The translations under genes were made by a program, and so were the position numbers. Positions 3,417-34,917 of a DNA stretch of 64,000 bases are shown one piece after another. The notes under the pieces are model-generated. The model was not told the origin of the DNA. It saw nothing but the letters and a program-made list of their open reading frames with translations, and made no database searches. Source of the stretch: Allomuricauda sp. (GTDB taxonomy: Bacteria > Bacteroidota > Bacteroidia > Flavobacteriales > Flavobacteriaceae); the NCBI RefSeq assembly GCF_013911645.1, contig NZ_JACESV010000007.1:1-64000 (forward strand). Reading direction: 5' to 3'. Position 1 is the first letter of the stretch. The number at the start of each line of letters is the position of its first letter.

Positions 3417-3434
3417 GAATTTGATTTCTATAAA

Positions 3435-4340: not shown

Positions 4341-4350
4341 TTGTTATCCT

Positions 4351-5823: not shown

Positions 5824-5862
5824 TTTCTTGTTATTAAGGCTATATTAAAATAATTCTTTTTA

Positions 5863-7461: not shown

Positions 7462-7488
7462 TGGTTTGGTTGGTTTAATTGAGAGGGG

Positions 7489-9348
7489 TTATAGGTAATA
7501 TTTTTGGGTCTTCTTATTGTTTTGATAGGTTTCAAAGGATTCTTTGACAGCGTCTTTTTCAGACACTTCGGCCACGGCAACATCCCACCAAGCAAAACCT
7601 GGCACCCCTTTTTTTCGATCCACTTCAATGTAGATCAAAGTGGTCCTATCAATGGTCTTCGCTTCTTTTAAGGCCTCCTTGAATTCGGCCACGTTGGATG
7701 CTTTTATGACATAAGCGCCCATGCTCGCGGCATTCGCCACATAGTCCACGGGCAACAATCCGCCATCAAGCTGATCCGTTGCTTCGTTTCGATATCGGTA
7801 GTATGTGCCAAAACCTTCGCTCCCCAAAGAAGCAGAAAGAGAGCCTATACTGGAGTAACCATCATTGTTCAACAAGATAATGGTAAGTTTTTGCCGTTCC
7901 TGAATGGCAGTGACTATCTCCTGTGACATCATCAAATAACTGCCGTCACCCACCATCACATAGATTTCACTATTAGGTCTAGCCATCTTGGCACCAAGGC
8001 CACCCGCAATTTCATAGCCCATGCAAGAGTATCCGTATTCCAAATGGAAACCTTTCGGATTCCTTGTGCGCCATAGTTTATGTAGATCACCGGGCAGGCT
8101 TCCTGCTGCACAGAGCACAATGTCCTTGGCCTCCGAAAAATTATTCACGGCACCTATGACCTCGCCTTGAAAAGCGGGTGTTCCGTTTTTTTCCGCATAT
8201 ATTCCGGATACAAAATCATCCCAGTTTTTGTTGAGTTCCAATACTTTTTTCCGGTAGGGTTCCCCCACTTCAAAATCTGAAAGTTGTTGATTCAATTCTT
8301 CGAGAATCGCCTTGGCATCTCCCACCAAGGGAAGGGCACCGTGTTTGAAAGAATCGAATTCCGTTACATTAATATTGATGAAACGGACATTTGGATTTTG
8401 AAACCCTGATTTGGATATGGTGGTAAAATCACTGTAACGGGTTCCTATGCCTATGACCACATCGGCTTCCTTGGCCACTTCTATGGCTCCTGGGGTTCCC
8501 GTAACACCGACTGCACCCAAATTTTGGGGCACATCATAGGGCAACGATCCTTTTCCCGCATAGGTCTCTGCTACCGGAATTCCTGTTCGGGTGACCATTT
8601 CTTCCAAAACATCTGTGGCACCGCTATAAATGGTCCCTCCCCCGGCAACAATAAACGGTTTTTTGCTCTTTTTAATGAGTGAGACGGCCCGTGCCAATAA
8701 GCTACGATCAGGCAATGTCCTACCTATTGTCCATATTTTTTTCTCGAACATTTCAGATGGAAAGTCATAAGCCTCAGCTTGGACATCCTGTGGAATGCTC
8801 AAGGTTACCGCACCTGTCTCCGCAGGAGAGGTCAATACCCGCATGACTTCAGGTAGGGCCGTAATCAGTTGTTCTGGCCGGTTGATTCGATCCCAATATT
8901 TTGAGACAGGCTTAAAACAATCGTTTACAGAAATATCTTGCGTAGTATTGGATTCAAGTTGTTGCAGTACGGGAGCCACTTGTCTTGTTGCAAAAATATC
9001 CCCGGGGATGAGCAGTACAGGAATCCGATTTATGGTCGCCAAGGCTGCGCCTGTGACCATGTTTGTTGCTCCAGGCCCTATGGAGGTGGTACAGACAAAG
9101 GTTTCCAAACGGTTCTTAACTTTGGCATAGGCCACTGCAGAATGGACCATGCCCTGCTCGTTACGGGCCACATAAAACGGAAATTCCGGGTCTTGGTGGA
9201 GTGCCTGCCCGATTCCTGCTACATTTCCATGTCCCAGAATCCCAAAACATCCGGCAAAAAACTTGTGCTCCCTGCCATCCCGTTCCACGTATTGGTTCTT
9301 AAGGTACGCGATGGTCGCTTGGGCCACTGTCAATCGTATTGTTTTCAT
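7489..9348 (-). CDS. iolD: 3D-(3,5/4)-trihydroxycyclohexane-1,2-dione hydrolase (ThDP enzyme)
   Basis: Opens the inositol ring: hydrolyses the cyclic dione to 5-deoxy-glucuronate. The 619-residue protein has the three-domain thiamine diphosphate enzyme layout. The N-terminal Pyr domain carries GCFGILGHGNVAGIG and its acidic environment, a central domain holds VIGIGTRYSDF, and the C-terminal PP domain has the ThDP motif beginning VGDGSYLMM and ending LLNN. The length matches IolD rather than acetolactate synthase (about 560). It is followed by the symporter gene with a 27-base gap and preceded by iolC with about 94 bases between. Confidence 0.93.
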   Translation of the reverse strand: MKTIRLTVAQATIAYLKNQYVERDGREHKFFAGCFGILGHGNVAGIGQALHQDPEFPFYVARNEQGMVHSAVAYAKVKNRLETFVCTTSIGPGATNMVTGAALATINRIPVLLIPGDIFATRQVAPVLQQLESNTTQDISVNDCFKPVSKYWDRINRPEQLITALPEVMRVLTSPAETGAVTLSIPQDVQAEAYDFPSEMFEKKIWTIGRTLPDRSLLARAVSLIKKSKKPFIVAGGGTIYSGATDVLEEMVTRTGIPVAETYAGKGSLPYDVPQNLGAVGVTGTPGAIEVAKEADVVIGIGTRYSDFTTISKSGFQNPNVRFININVTEFDSFKHGALPLVGDAKAILEELNQQLSDFEVGEPYRKKVLELNKNWDDFVSGIYAEKNGTPAFQGEVIGAVNNFSEAKDIVLCAAGSLPGDLHKLWRTRNPKGFHLEYGYSCMGYEIAGGLGAKMARPNSEIYVMVGDGSYLMMSQEIVTAIQERQKLTIILLNNDGYSSIGSLSASLGSEGFGTYYRYRNEATDQLDGGLLPVDYVANAASMGAYVIKASNVAEFKEALKEAKTIDRTTLIYIEVDRKKGVPGFAWWDVAVAEVSEKDAVKESFETYQNNKKTQKYYL

Positions 9349-9442
9349 TGATCTTTCTCTTTTTGGTTGTACTTAAAAGTGCACCTTTTCACAATCCGTT
9401 TCATCTGTCCTTGATTGATAGTGCACCTGGCTGTTCCATAGT

Positions 9443-10456
9443 TCAGAAACCGCCCTTGTCCTCTATAAATTTCAGTGATTCTTCCAGGGTCGGCATAAAA
9501 TTGGCACACCCATTTTTGGTCACCACCTGTGCTCCGCTGGCATTGGCCATCCGGCATGCTTTGTACAGGTCCCAGCCTTGAAGCAGACCATATAAAAAGC
9601 CGCCTGCAAATGCATCACCCGCCCCCAATACGTTCAAGACCTCTACCGGAAACCCGGGCACATCTTCCCGTGAACCATCTTTTGAATAGATGCTTACCCC
9701 TTCCGAGCCCCTTTTTACCAAAAGCGTCTCAATTCCCGAAGAAAGCAACCATGCTATTGATTTTTCAATATCCCCTTTGATTTCGGGTGCCGATATCTGT
9801 TGGTGTTTGATGACCACCTGTGATGCCTCGCTCAGAGTAGCCGCAAGAATTTCCTCTTCGGTACCCATCGCGATCTTGACTTTGGGCAAAATGGCTCTTA
9901 CGGTGAGTCCAAAGGCACGGTAGTCATGCCACTGGTCTGCCCTGAAATCGAGATCCAAAACAATATTAACATTATGTTTTTGGGCTATCTCGGCGGCAAA
10001 AAAGGTTGCGCTCCTACTGGGTTCAACGTTCATGGCCGTACCGTTTATGAGCAATATCTTATGATCTTGTATGTTGGCCTTCAGCACATCATCTATATCG
10101 ACTTGGCTATCGGCCGCATTATCGCGATAATAGACCAAGGGAAACCTGTCGGGAGGTTCGATGCCCAAAATGACCGCACTGCTTCGTGCTCCATTTTTGA
10201 CTGGGATGCAGTCTGTGTTCACCTTTTCCTTATTCAAAAAGTTGATGATGAATTCACCAACTTTGTCTTTGCCCACTGCGGTAAGTAGGCTGGGTTGGAG
10301 CCCAAGGCGGGCACAGGCCACCGCTATGTTCAGCGGAGAGCCTCCCACAAAGGCGTCAAATCCTTTGATATCATTGAATGGGTAGCCTATGTTCTGCGAA
10401 TACAGGTCTATGGAAGATCTTCCGAACGTAATCACATCGTATTTCTTATTGCTCAT
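9443..10456 (-). CDS. iolC: 5-dehydro-2-deoxygluconokinase (PfkB family)
   Basis: Phosphorylates 5-dehydro-2-deoxy-gluconate (DKG) with ATP to DKGP, the substrate of the IolJ aldolase. The 337-residue protein is a ribokinase/PfkB-type kinase. It has the N-terminal glycine pair region FVGGSPLNIAVACARLG and the C-terminal ATP/anion-hole signature NVLGAGDAFAGGF with the catalytic Asp. The opening (YDVITFGRSSIDLY) is characteristic of IolC proteins. iolB lies only 3 bases upstream in the same direction, so translation is probably coupled. Confidence 0.92.
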   Translation of the reverse strand: MSNKKYDVITFGRSSIDLYSQNIGYPFNDIKGFDAFVGGSPLNIAVACARLGLQPSLLTAVGKDKVGEFIINFLNKEKVNTDCIPVKNGARSSAVILGIEPPDRFPLVYYRDNAADSQVDIDDVLKANIQDHKILLINGTAMNVEPSRSATFFAAEIAQKHNVNIVLDLDFRADQWHDYRAFGLTVRAILPKVKIAMGTEEEILAATLSEASQVVIKHQQISAPEIKGDIEKSIAWLLSSGIETLLVKRGSEGVSIYSKDGSREDVPGFPVEVLNVLGAGDAFAGGFLYGLLQGWDLYKACRMANASGAQVVTKNGCANFMPTLEESLKFIEDKGGF

Positions 10457-10459
10457 CTT

Positions 10460-11335
10460 TTAGTGTTTGTTCATTTGTGCGGTAACCAAGGGCAACCTAT
10501 TGTCTTTTGTTTTCCATGAACCATAGATCCACTCATGATCGGGATCTGTGGTATTGGCCAAGCACTGGTCGGTACCGGCCAAAAAATTGAGGTAGTAACA
10601 ATGGAAACCATGTTCTGCCACTACTGGATGAAATCCCTTTGGAATCATAACCACATCATTGTGGCGTGGCCTTACTATTTCGTCCAATGAACGGTCTGCC
10701 GTATATACTTGTTGAATGGCATAAGCCTCTGGTTTTTGGAATTTGTAGAAATAGGTTTCCTCTTGAACGGGCTCCAATACATTTCCTTCTACATCTAAAA
10801 TTCGCTCATCATGCTTGTGTGCGGGGAAGGAACTCCAATTGCCCGATGGGGTGTACACTTCTCGCACCACGATCTTACTGCATCCAAAACCGGGCGGCAC
10901 CAAGTCGTTGAACTGCCTTGTTGCGTTGTCCCCACCAAAAATTACCGTGGGCGTTTCTTCGGGCGTGACAAACTTTGCTGGATATTCCCCATCAGATTTG
11001 CACCATCCGAAGGCAATATCCAAAGTATCGCTCGTTGCGGTCAGTTCAAACCTACTGTCCCTTGGAATGTAGAGGGTGTGTGCTACTCCGCTGAACACAT
11101 CTTTCCGCCCATTCCTCGTTTCCCATGTTCCCTTATCGCTCTTCACTCTAAAGTTTCCGCTCAGGAGCACAATAACCATTTCATTGTCTCCCGTACTATG
11201 TTCCCAGTTCTCTCCCCTTCTCATTTCCCTGGCCCCAAAACTCAGATAGTTCCAATTTGCTGTCTCTGGAGTTATGCTATGGTATGTTCCTGGTGTTTTA
11301 AGGGGTTTGACCAATAAATGGGATTCTTTTCTCAT
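10460..11335 (-). CDS. iolB: 5-deoxy-glucuronate isomerase
   Basis: Isomerises 5-deoxy-glucuronate to 5-dehydro-2-deoxy-gluconate. The 291-residue protein has the double-cupin fold of the KduI/IolB family. The metal-binding segment is SFPAHKHDE, with later conserved parts ETYFYKFQKPEAYAIQQVY and HNDVVMIPKGFHPV, which are diagnostic of IolB. It overlaps the upstream iolJ stop by four bases (ATGA), so the two genes are translationally coupled. Length and motifs match the family throughout. Confidence 0.94.
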   Translation of the reverse strand: MRKESHLLVKPLKTPGTYHSITPETANWNYLSFGAREMRRGENWEHSTGDNEMVIVLLSGNFRVKSDKGTWETRNGRKDVFSGVAHTLYIPRDSRFELTATSDTLDIAFGWCKSDGEYPAKFVTPEETPTVIFGGDNATRQFNDLVPPGFGCSKIVVREVYTPSGNWSSFPAHKHDERILDVEGNVLEPVQEETYFYKFQKPEAYAIQQVYTADRSLDEIVRPRHNDVVMIPKGFHPVVAEHGFHCYYLNFLAGTDQCLANTTDPDHEWIYGSWKTKDNRLPLVTAQMNKH

Positions 11336-12297
11336 CTGCTCATTACTATTTTGTTGTTTGTCCTTATTCTTTCTGCCTTGCCAGTGGCTCCCAAAAGTTC
11401 AAATTTTTGCAACATGAACTTTTCGTATTCTTGTATGTATTCCTTTCCGGGCAATATTGGGTCGAACAAGTCTGGAGTCTGTTTAAAAAACTCCCGATGC
11501 ACCCTGGCCCAGAGCAATCTGGTGTCGGTCGCAATATTGATCTTGCAAACACCGTACTTTATGGATTCTACTATCTCTTCCGGAGAAACACCCGCTGCTC
11601 CCTCGGTCAACTTTCCACCTGCTTGGTTGATCCGTTCTATTTCCTCTACATTGACGGCAGAGCCCCCGTGCAGTACAATGGGGAAACCGTTCAACCGATC
11701 CTGTATTTCTTTTAGTATATGGAATTGGATTCCCTGGCCTCCCGAAAATTTATAGGCCCCATGGCTGGTCCCGACCGCTACGGCAAGACTATCACATTTT
11801 GTGGCATTGACAAACACCGCCACTTCGGATGGTTGGGTGTAGCAGGAATGTTCCTCTGCAATGTCGATATCGTCTTCCACACCTGCGAGCACACCCAATT
11901 CAGCCTCCACGACCATATTGGCCTGGTGGGCCTTTTCCACCACGGTACGTGTCCGCACCACATTGGTCTCAAAATCATCGTGGGAAGCATCGATCATCAC
12001 AGATTGGTACTTTTTCGAGTTAATGGCGTCAAAGGCATGCTCTTCATTGCCATGGTCCAAATGAACGGCATATACAGCCTTGGGATAGATCTTTGCCGCG
12101 GCATCGATCATGGCGGACAACATTTTTGCATGGGCGTAGCTCCTTGCCACGGGGGTCAACTGCACTATAAAAGGAGCATTGGCCCGCTGTGCGGCACTAA
12201 AAAGCCCGTGCACCTGTTCCATTGTAAAAACATTTACGGCCGCAATGGCATATTTGCCGTAGCAGTCGTTAAAAAAAATCTTGGGAGAAACAACCAT
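11332..12297 (-). CDS. iolJ: Class II aldolase, probable 6-phospho-5-dehydro-2-deoxy-D-gluconate aldolase
   Basis: Splits DKGP into dihydroxyacetone phosphate and malonate semialdehyde. The 321-residue protein is a class II, zinc-dependent fructose-bisphosphate aldolase relative: AVHLDHGNEEHAF carries the metal-binding His and catalytic Asp, VEAELGVLAGVEDD is the conserved glutamate loop, and FPIVLHGGSAV the second metal-ligand segment. It is the first structural gene of the iol operon and overlaps iolB by ATGA. A classical glycolytic FbaA role is possible by family alone; its place at the head of an otherwise complete iol operon makes IolJ more likely. Confidence 0.87.
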   Translation of the reverse strand: MVVSPKIFFNDCYGKYAIAAVNVFTMEQVHGLFSAAQRANAPFIVQLTPVARSYAHAKMLSAMIDAAAKIYPKAVYAVHLDHGNEEHAFDAINSKKYQSVMIDASHDDFETNVVRTRTVVEKAHQANMVVEAELGVLAGVEDDIDIAEEHSCYTQPSEVAVFVNATKCDSLAVAVGTSHGAYKFSGGQGIQFHILKEIQDRLNGFPIVLHGGSAVNVEEIERINQAGGKLTEGAAGVSPEEIVESIKYGVCKINIATDTRLLWARVHREFFKQTPDLFDPILPGKEYIQEYEKFMLQKFELLGATGKAERIRTNNKIVMSR

Positions 12298-12392: not shown

Positions 12393-12410
12393 CATGCAAA
12401 GGTTTGCATG
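12393..12410. promoter_or_regulatory. LacI-type operator candidate upstream of iolJ (O1)
   Basis: An 18-base palindrome CATGCAAA-GG-TTTGCATG with perfect 8-base arms, in the 128-base gap between the lacI stop and the iolJ start, about 96 bases before the iolJ ATG. The same core is found twice more in the window, upstream of the first susC and of the divergent phosphodiesterase/phosphatase gene, at nearly the same distance from each start codon. A short, two-fold symmetric site next to a LacI-family gene is the expected form of its operator. Binding itself is inferred. Confidence 0.7.
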
Positions 12411-12425: not shown

Positions 12426-13469
12426 TCAATCGGAAATACCGACCGAATCTTCTCTGGAGGATGCCCTTACAACCAGTTCCGGCTTAAATACTTCCATTCT
12501 GAATTCTTCCTTGGAATTTTTGTTTTTAATGCGTTGCAACAATATCCTGGCAGACAACATGCCCAAACTGTACACCGGTTGCCAAACGGTGGACAATGCA
12601 GGGGAAAAGTATAAGGAATGGGGCTCATCATCAAAACCGACGATTGAAATGTCACCAGGAATAGCCAGTCCCATTTTTTTGGCCACGTGCATGGCCGAAG
12701 CGGCTATATTATCATTAATGGCAAATATGGCATCTGGGGCATCCTCAAGTTCCAGTAATCTCTTGGTGGGTTTGATACCATCTTTATGGGAAAAGCCCTT
12801 AACGTGTTGGATGTAGTCTTTTCGTAAGGGCACCTTGTTCTTCTCCAGAGCATCAAGATAGCCTTGGAGCCTATGCTTTGTGGTGCTCAGGTTCAAAGGG
12901 CCGCCCAAATGGGCTATTCTTTTGCAGCCGGAACGTATGAGGTATTCCACAGCTTGTAATGCCCCGGAATAATCGTCCACCAAAACCTTGTCGCTTTCCA
13001 ACCCTGGGCAGTCCCGATCAAAAACCACCACGGGCACATCGTTCCTCTGCAAATTCTTGAAATGGTCAAAACTCTTGGTTCCTGATGATGGGGATACCAA
13101 AATGCCATCCACGCGCATCTTGGACAACTTCTTCACCAAGGTGACCTCTTCTTCGTAGGATTCATTGGAAATACAAATCATGATATTGTATTCCGTTGGT
13201 CCCACCACATCCTGGATGCCCGTAATAATAGCGGAAAAAAAGTGACTGGTTATTTCGGGCACTATGACCCCTATAGTATTGGATTTTTTTTGAAGGAGCC
13301 CCAAGGCCATGGGATTGGGTTGATAATCCAGTTCCTCGGCCAATTTTTTGATGGCTTTCTTGGTATCGTCCCCGATAGCGGGATGATCGTTAAGAGCCCT
13401 TGAAACTGTGGAAGGGGCAAGGTTGAGCTTGGCGGCAATATCCTTTAAGGTGACACGTCCCTTTTTCAT
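12426..13469 (-). CDS. LacI-family transcriptional regulator of the inositol locus
   Basis: A 347-residue protein with an N-terminal LacI helix-turn-helix (VTLKDIAAKLNLAPSTVSRA, then the hinge region LDYQPNPMA) and a periplasmic-binding-protein-like effector domain (NTIGVIVPEITSHFF ... ISIVGFDDEPHSLYFSPALS). It lies directly upstream of, and in the same direction as, the iol operon. Three copies of a palindrome (see O1-O3) make it the likely controller of the iol operon, the adjacent SusC/SusD operon and the divergent phosphodiesterase/phosphatase. The effector is probably inositol or an early catabolite. Both repressor and activator modes are possible. Confidence 0.88.
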   Translation of the reverse strand: MKKGRVTLKDIAAKLNLAPSTVSRALNDHPAIGDDTKKAIKKLAEELDYQPNPMALGLLQKKSNTIGVIVPEITSHFFSAIITGIQDVVGPTEYNIMICISNESYEEEVTLVKKLSKMRVDGILVSPSSGTKSFDHFKNLQRNDVPVVVFDRDCPGLESDKVLVDDYSGALQAVEYLIRSGCKRIAHLGGPLNLSTTKHRLQGYLDALEKNKVPLRKDYIQHVKGFSHKDGIKPTKRLLELEDAPDAIFAINDNIAASAMHVAKKMGLAIPGDISIVGFDDEPHSLYFSPALSTVWQPVYSLGMLSARILLQRIKNKNSKEEFRMEVFKPELVVRASSREDSVGISD

Positions 13470-13661: not shown

Positions 13662-14534
13662 CTAGATGTCTTTCAACCAATCCAAAAGAAACTGGCCCCA
13701 TTTTGCAAGTCTACCCTTTTGTAGGGCCAGGGCAAATCCATGTCCGCCATACGGGTAAATGTGCATCTCAACCGATATCCTTTTGTCCTTGAGTGCCTTG
13801 ACCAGCTGAAGGCTGTTTTCCAGCGGGACCACTTCGTCATCGGCGCTGTGGAGGATAAATGTGGGAGGCGTGTTTTCCCTTACCTGTAATTCATTGGAAT
13901 AGTGCTCCACCAAATCGTCGGAAAGCTGCTCCCCCAACAAGTTTTTCTTTGAACCGTTGTGAGTGTAGTCTTCTTTCATTGTCACCACTGGATAGATAAG
14001 TGCCATGAAATCCGGTCGGTTCTCATCTTCAAAGTGTGTCCCAAGTGTGGAGGCTAAATGCCCTCCTGCCGAAAAACCCATTATTCCGACCTTGTTGGGG
14101 TCAATTTCCCATTCTTCCGCATTTGAGCGGAGCAGTTCCATTCCCCTCTTGGCGTCCAGCAATGGGGTGAGGTGCGGGACCTCATTGGATTCGTCCTCAG
14201 GCAGTCTGTATTTTAGAACGGCCGCCGCTATGCCATAGCCATTGAGCCATTTGGCAACATCCGTTCCTTCCTTGTCGTAGGCCAACACACCGTATCCTCC
14301 CCCGGGACATATCATGACCATCTTGCCTGTTTTGATGACGCTGGATGGCAAATACACTTCCAAACTAGGCCCTATGACTTTTGAAATCACCCTGGCCTTT
14401 GGATTCTTTTGTACTTCTTCGAGATTTGATTCTTTGGCATTCGGGATTTTTCCTTCCCAGAGGGGGATAATGTGGTTTTGGGCCATACACAAATGGAATG
14501 ACCATAAAAATAGTATTGATACAATATATTTCAT
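13662..14534 (-). CDS. Secreted alpha/beta hydrolase (esterase/lipase family)
   Basis: A 290-residue protein with an N-terminal signal peptide ending near CMAQ. The fold is the hormone-sensitive lipase/BD-FAE-like esterase type: oxyanion-hole segment MICPGGGYGVLAYDKEG, nucleophile elbow GFSAGGHLAS, acid residue in HSADDEVVP and catalytic His in PYGGHGFAL. It acts on carboxyl esters in the periplasm or outside. It is last in the minus-strand SusC/SusD operon, 79 bases after the PLC-like gene. In that setting it could remove acyl chains from a lipid or acetyl groups from a substrate. The precise substrate cannot be read from the sequence. Confidence 0.8.
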   Translation of the reverse strand: MKYIVSILFLWSFHLCMAQNHIIPLWEGKIPNAKESNLEEVQKNPKARVISKVIGPSLEVYLPSSVIKTGKMVMICPGGGYGVLAYDKEGTDVAKWLNGYGIAAAVLKYRLPEDESNEVPHLTPLLDAKRGMELLRSNAEEWEIDPNKVGIMGFSAGGHLASTLGTHFEDENRPDFMALIYPVVTMKEDYTHNGSKKNLLGEQLSDDLVEHYSNELQVRENTPPTFILHSADDEVVPLENSLQLVKALKDKRISVEMHIYPYGGHGFALALQKGRLAKWGQFLLDWLKDI

Positions 14535-14613: not shown

Positions 14614-16527
14614 TCAATCGCAGCCAACGACTTTTTCCAAATCGTTCTTTACTTTCTGTTGTTCCACATAGTTGGTGTACAGGCCTTCATATGGCCTATC
14701 GGAAACGGCAAACATGACATCGGTGCAACGGATATTGTCGTACTGACCGTCACCCGATGCGCTTTGCATGTGGAAAATCCGACTGATGTAGCTGTCGTCT
14801 TTTGCATCAATGAACGCCCCGATATCATTGCCATAGTTCCCAGGGTTTCTCCAATCGGGCGACACCAATTTGTTGTTTTCCCTGTACCGTCTGAGTTGGA
14901 GGAAGTTTTCTTGCAGTATGCCATCAGTTGTGGCAAAGGGCTGAAAGTTGTTGGTGTGCTCACTCTTGGTTATGTTGTTGTTCGGCTGTATATAGAGCAC
15001 CACTTTTCCGAGCAGCCCCCCTTCCTTCGACCCGTTTTCGTCCATAAAGTACAAGGTCTTGCCATCAACAATCTTGTTTTGATCCACCAGATCCTCATTA
15101 TGGAACCCGCTGGAACTATGGTACCTCAGCTTGTCCCCAAACTTGTCCTGCATCAAACGAATGATGCTTTGCCATTTGGCATTTGCCATCCATTGTTCGT
15201 ACTCCTTGAGCTCTGTCATAATGAACAGGGGTTCGTGCTCTGGGTTGTCATTGCTCCAATTGGAGATATATGTTATCCAATCTTCCAAGAAAACGGACGA
15301 TGGATTGTCCACGCTTAAATCTACCTCATCTCCTGGGGCATCATGTCCTAGAACAAGTTCCCCTATCGCTATAGACATCAATTGGACGGATGTATCTTTT
15401 TGTAAAAAAAGGTAATATCCATTTTCAGATGGGTACATACCCGCTTCTGCACCGGACAACATATCAGATTCATTGTTGTACTCATTGACCAAATTAGGCT
15501 TGCCATTGTCCATGATCAATTGCGAACCCTTTACATCACCATTGGCGCCATAGGAGTTCACAAAGAGTTTTCCATTGGTGATTGAAGCCTGTACCGTGCC
15601 AGTGAGCTGGCTTGATGTGCTTGTTTGGTTGCCGTTCGTTGTCCAAGTGTTTCCATTGGTATCGACCGATTCGACCTTGAAATTAGTGACGGTATTTACA
15701 TTGTGCCTAAACATGTAAAGGTTGTTATCCTGCTCAAAAGGATACAGGGTTTCATTGGAGGGAACGGAATTTTGTTCATAGCGTGTTTCTCCAAGGGCAA
15801 CATCTCCACCATCAAAAGAGATGTCGATAATCTTATAGGTGGTACTGTCCTTGGCATGCACTGCTGTGTAGGCTGTATTGTTGAACACAAAAGTGGACAG
15901 GTTCACATTGGTGTCCCCTATGTTTCCTGAATGCAAGGGAGTCAGTGAAGTGCCATTGAAACTGTAAATGATAAAGTCACCGGCCAATGGTTCGTATCCA
16001 AAAATATATAGCCCGTTCTGAAAAGGCAGTATTGAAAATTTCCTATCGACTTCGTCCAAACCTTCTCCTGTATTCTGGTAAACTATTTGTGGATTGCCAT
16101 TGTCCAGGCTGAATATTTTGATACTGCCCCCGATTTTTGAATAGGAAAGGATATGTGGCTCTCCCATGTAATCGAACACGGTAAATCCATCCACTTGCTC
16201 GGCCCAAGTTGTCTGCAAGGCTTTTTGGGTATGGAAGGTGAACAGGTCGAATTCAAAAAACCTGAGCCCCCTTTCCAATTGTGTCTCGATTCCTTCCCTT
16301 TTCATCCCTCCAAGATTTCCTGAATAGGAATTGTGGGTCCCTGTAAAGAAAAACTGCCTATATATGGCGGTCGTGGAATCCGTAACAACAGGATCTGGAT
16401 CTGGATCCGGATTCTGCCCCTGTTTTTGGGGGTCTGGTTTCACAGCGGGTTCTCCGCTGTCCGATGAGCAACCGTAGGCCACAAAAAAGCCCAACAATGC
16501 GATACTGAAGAGAGTTGATCTTGTCAT
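14614..16527 (-). CDS. PI-PLC-X-like phosphodiesterase lipoprotein with a propeller-like insert
   Basis: I take the start at 16527 (637 residues), not 16575. The first in-frame Met lies within a terminator hairpin, while the later one begins a clean lipoprotein signal (hydrophobic run, then AYGCSSD). After a Pro-Asp linker comes a PI-PLC X-type start: FTGTHNSYSG with the first catalytic His, then LERGLRFFEFDLF with the acidic metal/substrate residues. The expected second His appears only about 300 residues later, in LVLGHDAPGDE, followed by an X-domain-like remainder (WITYISNW, LFIMTELKE, TLYFMDENG). Between lie about six 40-45-residue repeats resembling beta-propeller blades. Probably cleaves phosphatidylinositol-type phosphodiesters at the cell surface; specificity is inferred from the linked iol operon. 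Confidence 0.75.
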   Translation of the reverse strand: MTRSTLFSIALLGFFVAYGCSSDSGEPAVKPDPQKQGQNPDPDPDPVVTDSTTAIYRQFFFTGTHNSYSGNLGGMKREGIETQLERGLRFFEFDLFTFHTQKALQTTWAEQVDGFTVFDYMGEPHILSYSKIGGSIKIFSLDNGNPQIVYQNTGEGLDEVDRKFSILPFQNGLYIFGYEPLAGDFIIYSFNGTSLTPLHSGNIGDTNVNLSTFVFNNTAYTAVHAKDSTTYKIIDISFDGGDVALGETRYEQNSVPSNETLYPFEQDNNLYMFRHNVNTVTNFKVESVDTNGNTWTTNGNQTSTSSQLTGTVQASITNGKLFVNSYGANGDVKGSQLIMDNGKPNLVNEYNNESDMLSGAEAGMYPSENGYYLFLQKDTSVQLMSIAIGELVLGHDAPGDEVDLSVDNPSSVFLEDWITYISNWSNDNPEHEPLFIMTELKEYEQWMANAKWQSIIRLMQDKFGDKLRYHSSSGFHNEDLVDQNKIVDGKTLYFMDENGSKEGGLLGKVVLYIQPNNNITKSEHTNNFQPFATTDGILQENFLQLRRYRENNKLVSPDWRNPGNYGNDIGAFIDAKDDSYISRIFHMQSASGDGQYDNIRCTDVMFAVSDRPYEGLYTNYVEQQKVKNDLEKVVGCD

Positions 16528-16546
16528 ACAACTAATATAAAGTATA

Positions 16547-16572
16547 AAAAGGGACCTGATCGGGTCCCTTTT
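16547..16572 (-). terminator. Hairpin between the DUF285 lipoprotein gene and the PLC-like gene
   Basis: Perfect 10-bp inverted repeat AAAAGGGACC / GGTCCCTTTT with a 6-base loop, followed on the minus strand by a T-rich tract (TTTTTATACTTTATATT). It lies within the operon, between the surface lipoprotein gene and the enzyme gene. It may act as a partial terminator or 3'-end stabiliser that makes the SusC/SusD part more abundant than the enzymes. Confidence 0.75.
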
Positions 16573-16592
16573 CAATTAAAAATAAATCCATA

Positions 16593-18116
16593 TCAATTAT
16601 CCCTGTTGCAGAACTCATTATTATCTGTTTTGTCAGCAACAAAATTGGGTTTATAGGCATCTTCCCATTGGGGTGCGTCGGTATCAAAATCGTAATTGCA
16701 CATTACGTTGCTCACGTCCCAACCGGAAAGGTCTTGGTTGAACACCTTGTTTTCTTTGAACAGGTTCTGCATATTGACCACATTGCTCACGTCCCAACCG
16801 GAAATATCTTGGTTAAAGGCGCAATTTTCACCACCGAACATGGTTTCCATGTTGTCCATACTGCTCAAGTCCCAATTATTGATCGAGGGATTGTTAAATC
16901 CGCTGTCCTTGAACATGTCCCACATGCTTACTACCTTGCTCATATCCCATGCACTAAGGTCGCCGTTGTAATCGGATTCCCTGAACATCTCACGCATGGT
17001 AATCACATTGCCCAATTTGTCGCCCCAACCCGAAAGGTCCTGATCAAAGGCATCGTTCTGCCTAAAGGTGGACTGGAAACTGGTCACATTGGAAACATCC
17101 CAATCACCAATGGGCTGGTTGAACGGGCAGTTCCTGAACATGTTTTTCATGGTCGTGGCACTACTCACATCCCATCCGGATATGTCTTGATCAAAAGCGG
17201 TATCCCTGAACATGGTCTCAAAAGTGGTCACATTACTTACGTCCCATTGATCTAAAGGCTGGTTGAAATTATTGGCCTTATAGAACATGTCCCACATGCT
17301 TGTGACACCGCTCACGTCCCAGTGGTTGATATTACTGTTAAAGGATGTGGCTTCCCTGAACATTTCCCTGAAATTGGTGGTTTCACTTAGGTCAGGGGCA
17401 TCTTCTGCTGTTATCTGCAGATTGGTGCACTTTCTAAAATAACCGCCGTCATTGCCCAACTTAACTTGTCCCCAGTTGGTGATGTCGATGATGTTTGCCG
17501 CACTCTCCTTGGTCATATCAAAGTTGAACCCATTGATTTCTCCCCAAACAGTGACCGTATAGTCACCGGCCTCTGCGTAGGTGTGCGTGGCAGACTCAAG
17601 GTCGTAGGTGGCCACTATACTTTCCTGCCCATCGCCCCAGAATACTTTGAAGTTGTAGGTCCCGGTCTCTATAAGTGGAAGGGTTATACTGCCATTGGCA
17701 TCCACTCTCCAAACGGACACAAATTCATCATCGGACTCAAACGGTTCCAATACTTTTAGATTGATGGTGTATTCCTCTTCCAGCCCAAATCCGGATACCA
17801 AAAGGGAGGAAGTCCCAGTAGAAAAACTTTCCCCGGATGCGGGCGAGGTTGTGATTCCATCCTGCAAATGGATGGTGAGCACCATGTCACTGGCATCACA
17901 ATTTTCCGGAAGGGAAGCTGTAATGCTTCTGGAATAATTGGTAACAGAAACCTCAATATCTTCCTCAATACAAGGGTTTTTGGAGGCTTCTATGATTATG
18001 GAGTCGATATAGACGTCCCTGTCGTCAAGGGAAAAGTCTGTACTGTCCACATCACAGGAACTGAGTGCAGCTCCGATAAATGCGATCAATAGGAAAAATT
18101 TATAAAATCGTTTCAT
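16593..18116 (-). CDS. Surface lipoprotein with PKD-like domain and DUF285 (BspA-type) repeats
   Basis: A 507-residue protein with a lipoprotein signal (FLLIAFIGAALSSCDVD). Residues of about 40-130 look Ig-like. A PKD-like domain follows (NFKVFWGDGQES, HTYAEAGDYTVTVWG). The rest is a run of about nine 24-25-residue DUF285 repeats of the form MFRxxxFNQPIGDWDVSNVT. Such repeats are common in bacterial surface proteins and are thought to bind ligands or surfaces. It follows SusD by 18 bases, in the place taken in other utilisation loci by SusE/SusF-like surface binding proteins, so a substrate- or membrane-binding role is reasonable but not shown. Confidence 0.8.
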   Translation of the reverse strand: MKRFYKFFLLIAFIGAALSSCDVDSTDFSLDDRDVYIDSIIIEASKNPCIEEDIEVSVTNYSRSITASLPENCDASDMVLTIHLQDGITTSPASGESFSTGTSSLLVSGFGLEEEYTINLKVLEPFESDDEFVSVWRVDANGSITLPLIETGTYNFKVFWGDGQESIVATYDLESATHTYAEAGDYTVTVWGEINGFNFDMTKESAANIIDITNWGQVKLGNDGGYFRKCTNLQITAEDAPDLSETTNFREMFREATSFNSNINHWDVSGVTSMWDMFYKANNFNQPLDQWDVSNVTTFETMFRDTAFDQDISGWDVSSATTMKNMFRNCPFNQPIGDWDVSNVTSFQSTFRQNDAFDQDLSGWGDKLGNVITMREMFRESDYNGDLSAWDMSKVVSMWDMFKDSGFNNPSINNWDLSSMDNMETMFGGENCAFNQDISGWDVSNVVNMQNLFKENKVFNQDLSGWDVSNVMCNYDFDTDAPQWEDAYKPNFVADKTDNNEFCNRDN

Positions 18117-18134: not shown

Positions 18135-19511
18135 TTAATAGCCGGGGTTCTGTTCCATATCCGTAATATCAACTTCAGCCTGTGGAATAGGGGCCAACAA
18201 TCTTATGGGGTCAACAGTGATACCTCTTCCTTCCGTTTGGAAGAAACTGTTCATAGTCTGTATGGCTTTGCCCGTTCGCAGTAGGTCGTACCAGCGGTGG
18301 CCTTCACCTGCCAATTCCAACCTTCTTTCGAAGGCAATGGCATTGCGCATGCTTGCTTGGTCGCTTGCAGTGGTGTTGTCCAGACCTGCTCTGTTCCTTA
18401 CCCTATTGAGATAAATCTCCGCAGTAGAGGTCTTGTTGTTCTCATTGAGGCATTCCGCATATAGTAGCAACACATCCGCATACCTGACCACAAAGTGGTT
18501 GTCCCCACCATCTTCCCTGTTGCTGTTGGGTGATGGTGTCCATTTGTTGATATAGTACACATTGTTGGATTCGTTGATCAAGTTTCGACGAAGATCTTCT
18601 GCCTCGTATAAATTGTACAGGGAACTTTCCATGGCCATGGCCCCCATGCCCCCTTGGTCATCAGGTTGGGTAAATATGTAATAGAACCGGCTTCCTTCAC
18701 TCATTCCATCTAAATTGGAAGTGTACTGAATACTGAAGACATCTTCATCGTTGCCTTCATTTTCCACACCAAAAAGGCCATCAATCGGAGCAAGGTCATA
18801 TTTTTCGGAACCCACGATGATTTCCAATTGTGCCTCTGCTTTGCCAAAGTCCCCTAGTCTCATGTAATGCTTAGCAAGAATGGCACGTGCTGCATATTCA
18901 TTTGCCCTGCCCACGCTATTGGTTTTTGGCAGAAGTGTTATGGCATCCAACAGGTCTGCCTCGATTTGCGTATAGATTTCAGACACTGGGGTCCGGACAT
19001 CATCAAACGCATTGGTAGGATCGTCCACCTCCAAAACCAAGGGAACATCCCCATAGATTGTTGTAAGCTGCTCATATAAAAATGCTCTGATGAATTTCAT
19101 CTCACCAATCCTTATACTTTTCAAGGATTCACTGTCATATAACACATTATCGATTACATCCAACACGGTATTTGCATATAAGATGCCCTCATAGGCATTC
19201 TCCCATATACTCCCAACAAAACCAGTGGTGCTGATCCATGAAAAATCTTCCAAAGGTCTCGCACCTCCATTGGAGTTTGGAGCTTGGATATATGCATTGT
19301 CAGAAGGAATCTCTCCCCACAGTATCATGTAATAATCATAGAGTGCCTGTAACTCATTATATGTAGCGGTCACTGTCGATTCAACATTTTCCTGTGTGGT
19401 GTAATAGTTGTCGGCCAAGATGCCTGTTTCTGGAAATTGGTCCAGTTCGTCTTCACATGCAAAGCATGAAAGCATTGCCAAAGTGTAAATATATATTCGT
19501 TTCATAACCAT
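18135..19511 (-). CDS. SusD/RagB family outer-membrane nutrient-binding lipoprotein
   Basis: A 458-residue lipoprotein (start MKRIYIYTLAMLSCFACEDE; a second Met two codons downstream of the annotated one is equally good). SusD hallmarks are present: DQFPETGILADNYYTT near the mature N-terminus, the TPR-rich centre (AARAILAKHYMRLGDFGKAE), and the C-terminal RNRAGLDN, FERRLELAGEGHRWYDLLRTG and IPQAEVDITDMEQNPGY. It caps the SusC channel encoded 8 bases upstream and binds the substrate at the cell surface. Neighbouring genes suggest a phospholipid head-group or inositol-containing ligand rather than a glycan, as there are no glycoside hydrolases. Confidence 0.93.
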   Translation of the reverse strand: MVMKRIYIYTLAMLSCFACEDELDQFPETGILADNYYTTQENVESTVTATYNELQALYDYYMILWGEIPSDNAYIQAPNSNGGARPLEDFSWISTTGFVGSIWENAYEGILYANTVLDVIDNVLYDSESLKSIRIGEMKFIRAFLYEQLTTIYGDVPLVLEVDDPTNAFDDVRTPVSEIYTQIEADLLDAITLLPKTNSVGRANEYAARAILAKHYMRLGDFGKAEAQLEIIVGSEKYDLAPIDGLFGVENEGNDEDVFSIQYTSNLDGMSEGSRFYYIFTQPDDQGGMGAMAMESSLYNLYEAEDLRRNLINESNNVYYINKWTPSPNSNREDGGDNHFVVRYADVLLLYAECLNENNKTSTAEIYLNRVRNRAGLDNTTASDQASMRNAIAFERRLELAGEGHRWYDLLRTGKAIQTMNSFFQTEGRGITVDPIRLLAPIPQAEVDITDMEQNPGY

Positions 19512-19519: not shown

Positions 19520-22500
19520 TTATTGGAATGTTAGATTGATGCCCGCAGAAATGAGTCTGGGAACTGCCGTTGTGCCAAAAATATGTCCTCTGTTCAGTGG
19601 GTTGCCCGTGTTGCCTCCATCAGGGTTCATTCCCCTGAACTTGGTCCAAGTGTGCAGGTTATTGGCAGAGACATATACGCGTAGGTTCTTTAGGTGCAAC
19701 TGTTCCAACACGTCGGAAGGTATGTTATACCCCAACTGTACGCTTCTCAATCTCAGGTAATCCGCATCAAGTACGTTGTAATTGGTGGGGTTTCTACTGG
19801 CAGACCTTGTAGCGGTGTTGCCATAAGCATCGGGAGGGGCTAAAAAACCATCCGGATTATGTACAGGGTCCCAATAATTGTTAAAATAGTGGTAGTTGGT
19901 ATTGGTAAACGCCTCCCCATACTCCAAATATCTGGAAGTCATCTCATCAAAGGCCATTCTTCCCACGGTTCCATTGAAGTTCAAGCTCATGTCAAACCCT
20001 TTATAGGCGAGGTTTATTCCAAAACCATAGGTTACTTCGGGGTTGTAGTCGCCCAAAAGCACCCTATCATTGGCATCAATAGTATCGTTTCCATCCGTGT
20101 CTTGGAATATGTAGTCACCCACTTCTGCAGATAGGGTAGTATTCTTTCTATTGTTATATTCAGCTACTTCTTCCTCGGATTTCAAAATCCCGATGATCTT
20201 ATAGCCATAAAGGTTCGCCAAGGACTCCCCTACCCGGGTAATGAACCTTTGATTTCCTCCTTCGAACAACTCGTCGGCACCTCCAAGGGAAAGAATCTCA
20301 TTATTGTTGGTTGCCAAATTGGCATCAAAGCCAAAGCTTAGATCCCCCAAGTTGAAATTAGATCCGCTGAGTTGGAATTCCCAGCCCTTGTTTCTCATTT
20401 CCCCAATGTTCTGAAGAGAATTGTTGAAACCAGTATGTTTGGGTACCGGCCTGTCCAACAAAAGATCGGTAATGTCTGCTACGTAGTAATCGACCCCTAG
20501 CCTGATTTTGTTGAAAAAACTCAAATCCACACCAAAGTTGTTGGAAGTATTAGTCTCCCAAGTAAGGGCATAGGATGGGGCACTGGACGGGGCGGCACCG
20601 GGATGGAGCGTACCATCATAGGGATAGTCCCTTCCTGTGCCAATGGAGGCATACTGTGCATAGTTGCCAATCTGATTATTCCCTGTTTGCCCCCAACTAT
20701 ATCTCAATTTTGCAAACGTGAGTATATCATTTTCCGGAAAAAAGGATTCATTGCTCAACACCCAACCTGCGGAGAACGAACCAAAGGTTCCATACCTATT
20801 GTCCCTTCCGAATCTGGAGGAACCATCGGTACGTATGGATCCCGATAGGAAATAGGTATCCTTGTAATCATACATAATCCTACCAAAATAGGAGAGCTGT
20901 GTCCATCGGCTTCGTGATGCCCCGGCCGTCTGCACAGTAGAGCCATCTATATTTTCAATGATATCGTTTGGAAAATCGAACCCGTCAACGGACAGTCCAG
21001 ATGAAGAGCTTTTCTGAAAACTTTGTCCTGCCAATGCATTGAACGAATGCTGGCCAATATCGAAGGTATAGTTGGCCGTGTTCTCTATGAGAACATCCCC
21101 CTGATCGCTTCTGCTTTCCGACCCCTGCTGAGGATTTCTTTCACTGATCAATTCACGGTATGCACCGGTGAGCATTGGCGCATACTGGTCGGTAAACTTG
21201 TAGTCTAACAGATAACCCAATGAGGTCTTTAGTTCCAGATTGTCTATAGGCTCATAGGAAAGATAGGCATTTCCGAAAGTCCTGAACTCTCTTCTATCAT
21301 ACTTGGACAATTCTGCCATGGCCACAGGGTTTTCTTGCAAGTTTGCATTATAGGGCCTGTTTGCACGAATTTGTGCCTCAATATTGTACCCGGTTGGGTG
21401 CGAATCGTCATAAGCAGAGAAAAATGGGTACATATATACCATGGCTCTGCCTGCTGGATCTATAGGGAACCTATATTGGTTACTTCCATTGGTAAGTCCT
21501 CTTTCAGAATAGTAACCGTTCATGTTTGCCCCGAACTTCAAACGTTCACTCAATTTGGTGTTGAACTTGATGTTAGTGGTATAACGTTTTTGGTCTGCAG
21601 TAATCACTATACCTTCCTCATCGGTGTACCCCAATGATACTGAATAGTTGGTGGCATCGTTCGAACCCGATACATTTATATGGTGGTTCTGTACTATCCC
21701 TGCCCTGTACACAGCATCTTCCCAGTTAAAATCCATTAGACCCTGTTCGTTATTCAGGTACGGAAGGGTATAATCCAATAAAAGTTCCCGCACGTTTGCT
21801 CCATTAGCAATACGCTGTGCCTCTGTGTCATTAACACTAACATTGCTATGGTTTTTCAGATATGCGTTGTTTCGTCCGTCCCTAAAGAAAATGGCCGCAT
21901 CATAAGCGTTCAAAAGGTCGTATGTCCCGGTACGTTCTTGTATCCCGGCCACGGAATTAATCTGAACTGTCGTTTTTTTGCTCCGTCCCTCTTTCGTTGT
22001 AATCATGATAAGCCCGTTGGCCGCCCGAGATCCATAAATGGCCGAAGAAGCCGCATCTTTTATCACATCAATGGATGCAATGTCATTGGGATTGATGACA
22101 TTGAGGGAGCTTCCTTCTGCCAACGGAAAACCATCGACCACCACGAGTGGGTTTGCGCTTCTGGTAATGGAGCCCGCACCCCGTATGGTTATAGTATTAC
22201 CATCCCCAGGGTTTCTTGCGTTGGTCAAAATGTCAACCCCAGGTAGTTTTCCTACTATGGCCTGGTCGAAGTTGGCGTTGGAATACTCCTGGATACTTTC
22301 TGCATCTATACTGACCACCGAGCCAGTGATTTTTTCCTTGGAGCTTGTCCCATAACCAATGACCACCACATCATCAAGAACATTGCTGGCCTCTTTCAAA
22401 ACAAAATCCAGGGTGAATACAGATGGGCCAACAGTTTTTTCCATTGTTTCAAAACCCATATAAGAAGCCACCAAAACAGGTGTGTCGGAACTGGTTTCAA

Positions 22501-22681
22501 TGGAATATTCCCCATTAAAGTCGGAAATAGCCCCATTGTTGGTTCCCTTCTCCACAACACTGGCCCCTGGAAGGGGGTACCCATCACTATCGATAACAGT
22601 ACCATTTATTTTCTTTTGGGCCCACGAAACCGTGGTAAGGCCAATTAGAAAAATTGTTACCAAAAATTTAAATTTCTTCAT
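19520..22681 (-). CDS. SusC/RagA family TonB-dependent outer-membrane transporter
   Basis: Start chosen at 22681 (MKKFKFLVTIFLIGLTTVSW, a clean signal peptide), 42 bases inside the ORF-track start, giving 1053 residues. In order: carboxypeptidase-like regulatory domain (INGTVIDSDGYPLPGASV), TonB-box/plug region (DDVVVIGYGTSSKEKITGSV, VVDGFPLAEG), SusC signature SIDVIKDAASSAIYGSRAAN, then a 22-strand-type barrel ending in a hydrophobic strand with terminal Phe-Gln. It has no STN domain, unlike the second SusC here, so it should not use an anti-sigma partner. Together with SusD it imports the locus substrate using TonB. A palindromic operator lies 83 bases upstream. Confidence 0.95.
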   Translation of the reverse strand: MKKFKFLVTIFLIGLTTVSWAQKKINGTVIDSDGYPLPGASVVEKGTNNGAISDFNGEYSIETSSDTPVLVASYMGFETMEKTVGPSVFTLDFVLKEASNVLDDVVVIGYGTSSKEKITGSVVSIDAESIQEYSNANFDQAIVGKLPGVDILTNARNPGDGNTITIRGAGSITRSANPLVVVDGFPLAEGSSLNVINPNDIASIDVIKDAASSAIYGSRAANGLIMITTKEGRSKKTTVQINSVAGIQERTGTYDLLNAYDAAIFFRDGRNNAYLKNHSNVSVNDTEAQRIANGANVRELLLDYTLPYLNNEQGLMDFNWEDAVYRAGIVQNHHINVSGSNDATNYSVSLGYTDEEGIVITADQKRYTTNIKFNTKLSERLKFGANMNGYYSERGLTNGSNQYRFPIDPAGRAMVYMYPFFSAYDDSHPTGYNIEAQIRANRPYNANLQENPVAMAELSKYDRREFRTFGNAYLSYEPIDNLELKTSLGYLLDYKFTDQYAPMLTGAYRELISERNPQQGSESRSDQGDVLIENTANYTFDIGQHSFNALAGQSFQKSSSSGLSVDGFDFPNDIIENIDGSTVQTAGASRSRWTQLSYFGRIMYDYKDTYFLSGSIRTDGSSRFGRDNRYGTFGSFSAGWVLSNESFFPENDILTFAKLRYSWGQTGNNQIGNYAQYASIGTGRDYPYDGTLHPGAAPSSAPSYALTWETNTSNNFGVDLSFFNKIRLGVDYYVADITDLLLDRPVPKHTGFNNSLQNIGEMRNKGWEFQLSGSNFNLGDLSFGFDANLATNNNEILSLGGADELFEGGNQRFITRVGESLANLYGYKIIGILKSEEEVAEYNNRKNTTLSAEVGDYIFQDTDGNDTIDANDRVLLGDYNPEVTYGFGINLAYKGFDMSLNFNGTVGRMAFDEMTSRYLEYGEAFTNTNYHYFNNYWDPVHNPDGFLAPPDAYGNTATRSASRNPTNYNVLDADYLRLRSVQLGYNIPSDVLEQLHLKNLRVYVSANNLHTWTKFRGMNPDGGNTGNPLNRGHIFGTTAVPRLISAGINLTFQ

Positions 22682-22763
22682 ATTAGGTTGATTATAATTG
22701 TTAATTCGGCAACCAAATAACAATAAAAAAACGATTTCGTTAATACGCCTACATCAAAACTTT

Positions 22764-22779
22764 ATGCAAAGGTTTGCAT
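22764..22779. promoter_or_regulatory. LacI-type operator candidate upstream of susC (O2)
   Basis: Palindrome ATGCAAA-GG-TTTGCAT, identical over 16 bases to the core of O1 before iolJ, located 83 bases before the susC start chosen here. It sits in the divergent promoter region between susC and the phosphodiesterase/phosphatase gene. Confidence 0.7.
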
Positions 22780-22924: not shown

Positions 22925-22944
22925 TTGTGCAAACCTTTGCACAA
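22925..22944. promoter_or_regulatory. LacI-type operator candidate upstream of the phosphodiesterase/phosphatase gene (O3)
   Basis: A 20-base palindrome TTGTGCAAA-CC-TTTGCACAA with perfect 9-base arms, ending 88 bases before the 23032 start. Its core is the O1/O2 core read from the other strand. About 18-25 bases downstream is GTATTATTTG, close to the Bacteroidota -10 consensus TAnnTTTG (one extra spacer base). The palindrome contains a TTTG in the -33 area, so a bound regulator would overlap the promoter. Confidence 0.65.
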
Positions 22945-23031: not shown

Positions 23032-24858
23032 ATGATTTCTATGCACCTTACATTGCACAAGTACAAGATTTCCTTGCTCCATTTGGTCGTTCTCATTGGT
23101 GTTTTCCAATTCCAGTCCAACGTCCATGGCCAGAGCATCCATTCACACAATGATTATGAACAGGCTGTTCCTTTTTGGGATGCTTTTTCTGGTGGTCTCC
23201 AATCTTTTGAAGTGGATGTGTTTCTAAAAAACGGAGTATTATACGCCACTCATGAGGAATCCGAAATAATCGAGGACAGGAACATTGAAAATCTTTATCT
23301 CCAACCTATACAAAAGGCCTTGGCTCTGAAACTTGGGAATCAAAAAGCCATCCAAGTGCTCATCGATATCAAATCCGAAGCGGAACCGACTCTGCAAGAA
23401 TTGATCAATGTGTTGGAAAAATACCCGGATATCATAGGGAACAACAATATCACCTTGGTCATTTCGGGAAATCGTCCGCCCGTCGAAACCTACCCAAACT
23501 ATCCACCATACATCAAGTTTGATTATCAAAGCTTGGAAAACTTCAACAACGAGAAACTTTGGGACAAAGTGGCTTTGATCAGTCTCAACTTCAAGAAGAT
23601 TTCTCCTTGGAACGGGTTGGGAAGACTAACCTCAGATGACCTTGACAAAGTAAAGACCATCATCGATAAGGCACACAGCTATGGAAAACCTTTTAGGTTT
23701 TGGGCCACTCCCGATACCAAAACGGCTTGGCGGGCACTTGCTGATCTTGGAGTGGATTTCATCAACACGGATATGCCCTTCGTTTGCATCGATTTTGTCA
23801 ATTCTTTGGAAAAAAGGAGATACGGAAACAAGATTTTCTCTGAAGTTTATACTCCCCGATATACCGTAGATCAAAAGGAAAAACCGGTGAAAAACATCAT
23901 ATTGTTCATCGGCGATGGAAATGGGTTGAGCCATATCTCTTCAGCAGCCTTGGCCAATGGGGGGGCATTGACCCTGACACAATTGAAGAGCATCGGTTTT
24001 CTGAAAACTGCCTCAGCGGATGATTTCACCACCGACTCGGCTGCTGCGGGCACTGCTTTGGCAACCGGAAGCAAGACATACAATCGTTCCATTGGGCTCG
24101 ATACCTTGAGGGAGCCTCTGGTAAATATTCCCGAAAAACTAGCCACATCTGGCTTTATTTCTGGTTGTGTAACCACAGACAAGTTGACCGGGGCCACACC
24201 AGCTTCCTTTTATGCGCATCAGGAAGACCGGTCACAAGTAACCTCCATTGCAGCAGATTTGTTCAATAGTGAGCTTTCTCTATTTGTAGGGGGAGGAAAA
24301 ACTGATTTTGAAAACAAGGAAAACCTAGTTGGCTTCACTCTAGTGGATCATATAGATGATATTGGTGATTCTGACCATGAGAAGGTCGGTCATTTTTTTT
24401 CCAATGGCGATGTGCCAAGTGTTCTGGAAGGAAGGGGAGATGCATTGGCCAGGGCGACCAAAGGAAGCATCGATTTCCTAAAGGCAAAGAACAAACCTTT
24501 TTTCCTGATGGTGGAGGGTGCAAAAATAGACAAGTATGCGCATAAAAAAAGCGTGGCGGGCATTGTAAGTGAGGGGATAGATTTTGACAGGGCCATAACG
24601 GAGGCCATAAAATTTGCCGATGTTTCGAAAAATACACTAGTCATTATTACCGCCGACCATGAAACCTCTGGTTTTGCCATTCCACAGGGCAATCTCAAAA
24701 GCAGGACCATTGAAGGGGATTTCACCACTTTTGACCACACTGCGGCCATGGTGCCCATTTTTGCCTATGGTCCACACTCCCATGAGTTTCAGGGTGTGTA
24801 TGAAAACAATGAAGTTTTCGATAAAATAATGAACATCTTGAGCATATACCTTGAATGA
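23032..24858 (+). CDS. Fused glycerophosphodiesterase-like/alkaline phosphatase, secreted
   Basis: A 608-residue two-domain exported enzyme (signal peptide to about residue 34; the ATG three codons in is an alternative start). Domain 1 (about 35-260) belongs to the PLC-like/GDPD superfamily: SIHSHNDYEQ with the catalytic His, FEVDVFLKNG with acidic ligands, YATHEE, LIDIKSEAE and FRFWATPDT. Domain 2 (about 285-605) is alkaline phosphatase: LFIGDGNG, nucleophile Ser in TDSAAAGTALATG, TPASFYAHQEDR, EGAKIDKYAH and ITADHETSG, with all expected metal ligands. It would cut a phosphodiester and then release inorganic phosphate. Divergent from susC and sharing its regulatory region; paralogue at 31941-33710. 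Confidence 0.88.
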   Translation: MISMHLTLHKYKISLLHLVVLIGVFQFQSNVHGQSIHSHNDYEQAVPFWDAFSGGLQSFEVDVFLKNGVLYATHEESEIIEDRNIENLYLQPIQKALALKLGNQKAIQVLIDIKSEAEPTLQELINVLEKYPDIIGNNNITLVISGNRPPVETYPNYPPYIKFDYQSLENFNNEKLWDKVALISLNFKKISPWNGLGRLTSDDLDKVKTIIDKAHSYGKPFRFWATPDTKTAWRALADLGVDFINTDMPFVCIDFVNSLEKRRYGNKIFSEVYTPRYTVDQKEKPVKNIILFIGDGNGLSHISSAALANGGALTLTQLKSIGFLKTASADDFTTDSAAAGTALATGSKTYNRSIGLDTLREPLVNIPEKLATSGFISGCVTTDKLTGATPASFYAHQEDRSQVTSIAADLFNSELSLFVGGGKTDFENKENLVGFTLVDHIDDIGDSDHEKVGHFFSNGDVPSVLEGRGDALARATKGSIDFLKAKNKPFFLMVEGAKIDKYAHKKSVAGIVSEGIDFDRAITEAIKFADVSKNTLVIITADHETSGFAIPQGNLKSRTIEGDFTTFDHTAAMVPIFAYGPHSHEFQGVYENNEVFDKIMNILSIYLE

Positions 24859-34837: not shown

Positions 34838-34865
34838 GAATCTGTTCTTTTTCTTTTATAACATG

Positions 34866-34899: not shown

Positions 34900-34917
34900 G
34901 CTAAAAAATACACCCTA

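Follow-up and report, generated by a model that had tools for sequence, protein, structure and literature searches.

Gene content of the locus

The window (the whole stretch of 64,000 nucleotides that was analysed) contains a gene for a lipoprotein in which a catalytic domain of PI-PLC type is split by a predicted β-propeller. It is referred to here as the PLC gene. The genes and features around it are:

2409..12297, reverse strand: myo-inositol catabolic genes (IolG, IolE-like, IolA/MMSDH-like, Na+/solute symporter, IolD, IolC, IolB, class II aldolase)
12426..13469, reverse strand: LacI-family regulator, presumed reader of the palindromes
13662..14534, reverse strand: alpha/beta hydrolase of esterase-like type; in the four iol-bearing loci the PLC gene is followed by an ORF of equal length
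14614..16527, reverse strand: CDS of the 637-residue lipoprotein, a PI-PLC-C1-type catalytic domain split by a predicted six-bladed β-propeller
16545..16574, reverse strand: terminator-like hairpin in the gap between the DUF285 and PLC genes
16593..18116, reverse strand: DUF285/PARCEL-repeat lipoprotein with a PKD-like segment; its gene immediately precedes the PLC gene in the six loci
18135..19511, reverse strand: SusD-like surface lipoprotein
19520..22723, reverse strand: SusC-like TonB-dependent transporter
23032..24858, forward strand: fusion of GDPD_2 and alkaline phosphatase, divergent from susC

The order susC-susD-DUF285-PLC is kept in all six loci, with a GDPD-type gene nearby. The GDPD_2 gene is fused to an alkaline phosphatase in Flagellimonas, and is stand-alone in Wenyingzhuangia and in a genome designated G122. 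The locus contains a gene set of the PUS type, that is, SusCD together with phosphodiesterase and phosphatase genes. In three of the loci (L004, L005 and L007), susC, susD, DUF285 and the iol genes were assigned by ORF length and order, IolD being confirmed by profile and the GDPD fusion by Pfam; the PLC gene is followed there by ORFs of esterase, LacI and iol length.

The iol operon that adjoins the PLC cluster in Flagellimonas looks complete at the level of sequence. IolG (431 bits), IolD (907 bits) and IolC (379 bits) are over their NCBIfam cut-offs, IolE (214 bits) is under its own cut-off of 290, and IolB was recognised by Pfam KduI/IolB. Of 301 family genomes, only 18 have an IolD that scores over its cut-off. 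No IolD over cut-off was found in the genomes of G122 or Wenyingzhuangia, although both have the PLC and SusCD cluster. Because these two carriers are without iol genes, inositol catabolism is neither obligatory nor the universal purpose of the cluster.

All six loci have a hairpin between the DUF285 and PLC genes, with a sequence that differs among loci. The hairpin may reduce PLC expression relative to susCD, and its occurrence in every such gap suggests that attenuation has been selected.

The window has a second SusCD cluster at 31941-41733 (reverse strand), consisting of a GDPD-phosphatase fusion, alkaline phosphatase, SusD, SusC, FecR and an ORF of 189 residues. Its gene content resembles that of PUSII from F. 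johnsoniae, which has PhoA1 with PF13653, PusD2, PusC2 and a FecR-like protein (PMC8115612).

The split gene and its catalytic flanks

The PLC ORF is uninterrupted from the ATG at 16527 to the stop at 14614 and codes for 637 residues, with the coordinates that had been given in an earlier note on this DNA. The note had also quoted three motifs, all of which are there (FTGTHNSYSG with H65, FFEFDLF with E92 and D94, and LVLGHDAPGDE with H395), and a gap of about 300 residues before the second histidine. The distance from D94 to H395 is indeed 301 residues, against approximately 13 in the Streptomyces enzyme 3h4w as read from the alignment. The protein is divided as follows:

16468..16527, reverse strand: lipoprotein signal (residues 1-20) with lipobox Cys20, followed by SSDSGE
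16237..16380, reverse strand: N-terminal catalytic segment (residues 50-97) with HNSY (H65, N66) and EFD (E92, D94), from profile matches and alignments
15364..16236, reverse strand: predicted six-bladed propeller insert (residues 98-388), from AlphaFold2, Foldseek, self-similarity and low identity
14617..15363, reverse strand: C-terminal catalytic segment (residues 389-637) with H395, E439-x-K441, GKTLYFMDEN and later strands, from the PF16670 match, hhalign (probability 94-96%) and alignment

Residues 19-20 are GC, and the SSDSGE directly after them is compatible, as a sequence, with a Bacteroidetes surface-export signal, for which the consensus SDDFE is that of F. johnsoniae (PMC5080379). 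We infer that the PLC lipoprotein is located on the outer surface.

All six family members have an identical architecture, which rules out a sequencing or frame artefact. The split domain arrangement is real and uncommon, inside an otherwise recognisable enzyme family. The GC3 is 0.48 in the insert, 0.54-0.59 in the flanks and 0.46-0.56 in neighbouring genes. Since the values for insert and flanks lie within or close to the range of the neighbours, a recent patchwork origin is not claimed from base composition.

The family PF16670 (Ca2+-dependent PI-PLC) matches residues 413-484 with an E-value of 5.4e-5. The score of 22.8 bits is under the Pfam curated cut-off of 29.9, and a weak match is seen in all six members. 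The match to PF00388 (PI-PLC-X) is weak, with an E-value of 0.0042 at best among the six, and a PF00388 search of this protein's own genome gave no match, but is uninformative, control genomes being equally silent. The reading as a PI-PLC X-like domain in the earlier note is right in that the flanks are of PI-PLC type, but PF16670 fits better than PF00388. Judged by sequence, the flanks appear to belong with the Ca2+-dependent PI-PLC-C1 enzymes (PF16670) more than with PF00388.

Profile-profile comparison of the family with insert-less Bacteroidota relatives, made with hhalign, gave a collinear match on either side of the insert, at residues ~54-96 (probability 79-86%) and 352/408-515 (probability 83-96%). 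The profile of these relatives also matches the PI-PLC structures 5fyo and 3h4w. Residues H65, N66, E92, D94, H395, E439 and K441 are invariant in all six members; the HN, E-x-D and K are common to the insert-less relatives, and the (E/D/N)-x-K strand aligns as well. H395 was placed by eye from strand context and spacing, because MAFFT did not bring it into register. A single MAFFT alignment over all relatives misplaced E92 and D94 because of the insert, and the flanks were then aligned separately, with the N-terminal part correct. Between distant orthologs, the N-terminal catalytic segment is 71-88% identical. Profile matches and the conserved catalytic columns support a barrel made of the flanks, but its segments have pLDDT values mostly below 50 in both AlphaFold2 models, probably because the alignment is shallow.

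PDB sequences were searched with three queries (protein, insert and C-terminal profile), and nothing meaningful was found. Matches to MCM10 and RxLR had E-values above 0.1 and were judged to be due to chance.

The propeller insert

AlphaFold2, run with an alignment of five sequences, predicts 24 strands (six times four) over residues 98-388. The pLDDT of the insert is mostly 75-91 up to residue 310, and mostly 50-70 beyond it. For the Wenyingzhuangia ortholog, which is 56% identical, 24 strands are predicted again, with pLDDT mostly 77-93. Foldseek was run on the insert from both models, and the matches were propellers, including PfCyRPA (E-value about 1e-8, TM 0.6 by target length), LGI1 EPTP (E-value 6e-11), the lectins RSL, SapL1 and PHL, sialidases and, with the second model, alkaline phytase. 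The propeller that the earlier note had proposed is thus well supported by two models and by the structural matches. Such matches are common to propellers in general and point to no particular ligand. No lectin Pfam family matched.

The blades run approximately from 112-156, 157-204, 205-253, 254-304, 305-353 and 354-390. Six repeats had been proposed and are borne out, but the units are 37-51 residues long rather than 40-45. The self-similarity of the blades can be detected by profile, with a mean hhalign score of 13.4 against 8.6 +/- 2.0 for column-shuffled blades; seven of the 15 blade pairs are above the shuffled 95th percentile.

Between distant orthologs the insert is 36-44% identical, compared with 69-88% for the flanks. 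It therefore behaves as a separate domain, and on these sequence identities insert and flanks appear to evolve as different modules. Across positions 98-389, 57 are invariant in the six orthologs. Several of these are polar and located in blades 5-6 (Q336, D340, E349, N352, D355, K377 and Q382), and are a possible binding face.

Distribution

Six members were found. The others are from Muricauda sp. TY007 (98% identical to the protein from this genome), Flagellimonas hadalis (92%), Muricauda sp. F6463D (62%), G122 (57%) and Wenyingzhuangia sp. (56%). The protein or its profiles were used to search about 1,400 sampled genomes, and about 85,000 species were screened by a pattern scan. The rarity is an impression rather than a census, because the pattern scan relies on short conserved peptide words. 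The insert is present in all six members, and no member without it was found in the sampled genomes or the pattern scan. The nearest insert-less relatives (L036, L038 and L039) are distant. A further candidate, L003, was rejected because its match is confined to the low-complexity lipoprotein leader. Viral and plasmid searches found no relatives except for one weak match in Nonomuraea.

Palindromes and regulation

Three operator-like palindromes, for which no strand applies, are located at the locus:

12395..12408: TGCAAAGGTTTGCA, upstream of the iol operon
22765..22778: TGCAAAGGTTTGCA, upstream of susC
22928..22941: TGCAAACCTTTGCA, upstream of the GDPD-phosphatase gene

The 3.98-Mb genome contains the pattern TGCAAANNTTTGCA three times (12395, 22765 and 22928), where base composition predicts about 0.4 copies. 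Each of the four iol-bearing Flagellimonas-type genomes has exactly three copies of the LacI-type palindrome TGCAAA(CC/GG)TTTGCA, always within the PLC locus. By whole-genome count, the CC/GG-centred palindrome is absent from both carriers without iol genes. In F. hadalis one of the three lies at another place in the locus (L005:654), and there is one mismatch in the site on the GDPD side. This additional palindrome (L005:654-667) is near a short, truncated-looking reading frame that resembles a sulfatase.

A LacI-type dimer reads a palindromic operator. The LacI protein of the locus is the presumed reader of the TGCAAA(CC/GG)TTTGCA sites, and in Flagellimonas one LacI-type repressor probably co-regulates uptake (PLC and SusCD) and inositol catabolism. 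In the Wenyingzhuangia locus (L006:1384-3271), the SusCD-PLC operon is preceded by regulators that by sequence are sigma-factor-like and of FecR type, and there is no LacI gene. Because these look-alikes stand in place of LacI, regulation appears to have been swapped between lineages.

Proposed function

We consider it probable that PLC is a surface Ca2+-dependent phosphodiesterase of PI-PLC type with an inserted propeller, and that it belongs to one acquisition system for inositol phosphodiesters, together with the SusC/SusD importer, the DUF285 lipoprotein and the GDPD-alkaline phosphatase. The architecture (seen in models and conservation), the collinear profile match, the neighbourhood and the operator pattern are the observations from which we infer an activity, a substrate and a role for the propeller. 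The propeller would be inserted into the normally short β2-β3 connection of a PI-PLC-C1-like TIM barrel, right after the strand carrying the Ca ligand and acid and right before the strand of the second histidine. Because it enters directly after the Ca-ligand strand, it is probably beside the mouth of the active site, reading substrate or partner; its most likely ligand would be either part of the substrate (the head group or glycan) or a partner within the SusCD complex. The earlier note had suggested that it positions the enzyme on a membrane or surface substrate, which would fit a surface lipoprotein adjoining SusCD.

At the outer membrane, the split PLC would cleave phosphatidylinositol, glycerophosphoinositol or a related head group, and the product would be imported via SusCD. 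The GDPD-phosphatase would then strip off phosphate and glycerol, and myo-inositol would be taken up by the sodium symporter and broken down by the adjacent Iol enzymes, with LacI-type repression being lifted by inositol. On the best reading, the split PLC would supply both inositol and phosphate.

The main rival reading is phosphate scavenging, in which PLC would be a PUS-type phosphodiesterase for many lipid head-group or nucleotide phosphodiesters, and the iol neighbourhood a lineage-specific addition. In F. johnsoniae, PUSI and PUSII encode PF16670 and PF00245+PF13653 enzymes next to SusCD, and Pi depletion induces these loci (PMC8115612). The SusCD, GDPD and phosphatase genes would also fit, IolD over cut-off is missing from two of the six carriers, and the regulators in Wenyingzhuangia are, by sequence, of sigma-factor/FecR type and not LacI. 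We nevertheless regard this reading as unlikely: the only CC/GG palindromes in the four Flagellimonas-type genomes tie together susC, the GDPD-phosphatase gene and the iol operon, and therefore indicate an inositol-type signal rather than Pi.

It is less likely again that a phosphodiesterase of the same fold acts on another polymer or conjugate, such as a glycan phosphodiester or a GPI-like glycolipid, with the propeller as a lectin. Glycans are the usual substrates of SusCD loci, and lectins and sialidases are among the Foldseek matches. These matches, at 8-13% identity, are however common to propellers in general and are not accompanied by a lectin Pfam match, and the iol linkage favours a product containing inositol. 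A catalytically inactive surface binding protein that has retained the PLC scaffold would account for the PF16670 score being below threshold, but is very improbable: the expected catalytic and Ca-ligand positions are all invariant, no part of the protein is more conserved than the catalytic flanks, and the C-terminal segment differs from that of L005 by 36 synonymous and 12 non-synonymous codon differences.

The acquisition system for inositol phosphodiesters is therefore our preferred reading. More tentatively, and with somewhat less than even confidence, we propose that this is a dedicated outer-membrane locus of marine Flavobacteriaceae for the use of inositol phospholipids (or GPI-like molecules), in which the propeller is a substrate-reading or gating module and a single LacI-type regulon covers cleavage, SusCD import, dephosphorylation and catabolism. 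If this is true, a small catalytic barrel tolerates a closed domain of 290 residues between its catalytic residues, which would provide a test case for the evolution of domain insertions and for substrate gating. It would also extend the SusCD paradigm beyond polysaccharides and phosphate to inositol lipids of eukaryote type, and connect cleavage at the surface with a catabolic pathway that is rare in marine Bacteroidota, by way of a directly testable regulon.

Comparison with known systems

A literature search of partial coverage found no description of a propeller inside a PI-PLC. The X-Y linker of eukaryotic PLC (for example PLC-gamma) similarly has a domain inside the catalytic barrel, but X-Y inserts sit between the barrel halves, not between β2 and β3, and are not propellers. 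In prolyl oligopeptidase, a propeller interrupts a hydrolase whose catalytic fold differs from that of PLC. The Ca2+-dependent bacterial PI-PLCs (PF16670; 3h4w/3h4x, PLC1 from Streptomyces antibioticus; 5fyo/5fyp/5fyr) share the HNSY and E-x-D motifs, the second histidine on the next strand, (E/D/N)-x-K one strand further on, and a collinear strand order. The protein in the window differs from them in its inserted propeller, in being a lipoprotein in a SusCD operon, and in scoring below the Pfam cut-off.

Bacterial iol clusters are similar in having IolG, IolD, IolC, IolB, IolE-like and IolA-like proteins and a symporter, but the iol genes here are linked to a module of SusCD and phosphodiesterase at the outer membrane. 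Myo-inositol catabolic clusters were reported for 2% of the species in the Flavobacteriaceae (PMC9430895). Among described systems, the nearest are the Pi-inducible loci PUSI and PUSII of Flavobacterium, where SusCD adjoins a PF16670 enzyme in PUSI and a PF00245+PF13653 fusion in PUSII (PMC8115612). In contrast, the locus described here has both types of enzyme together, its PLC is a lipoprotein split by a propeller, and it has LacI-type operators and an iol operon.
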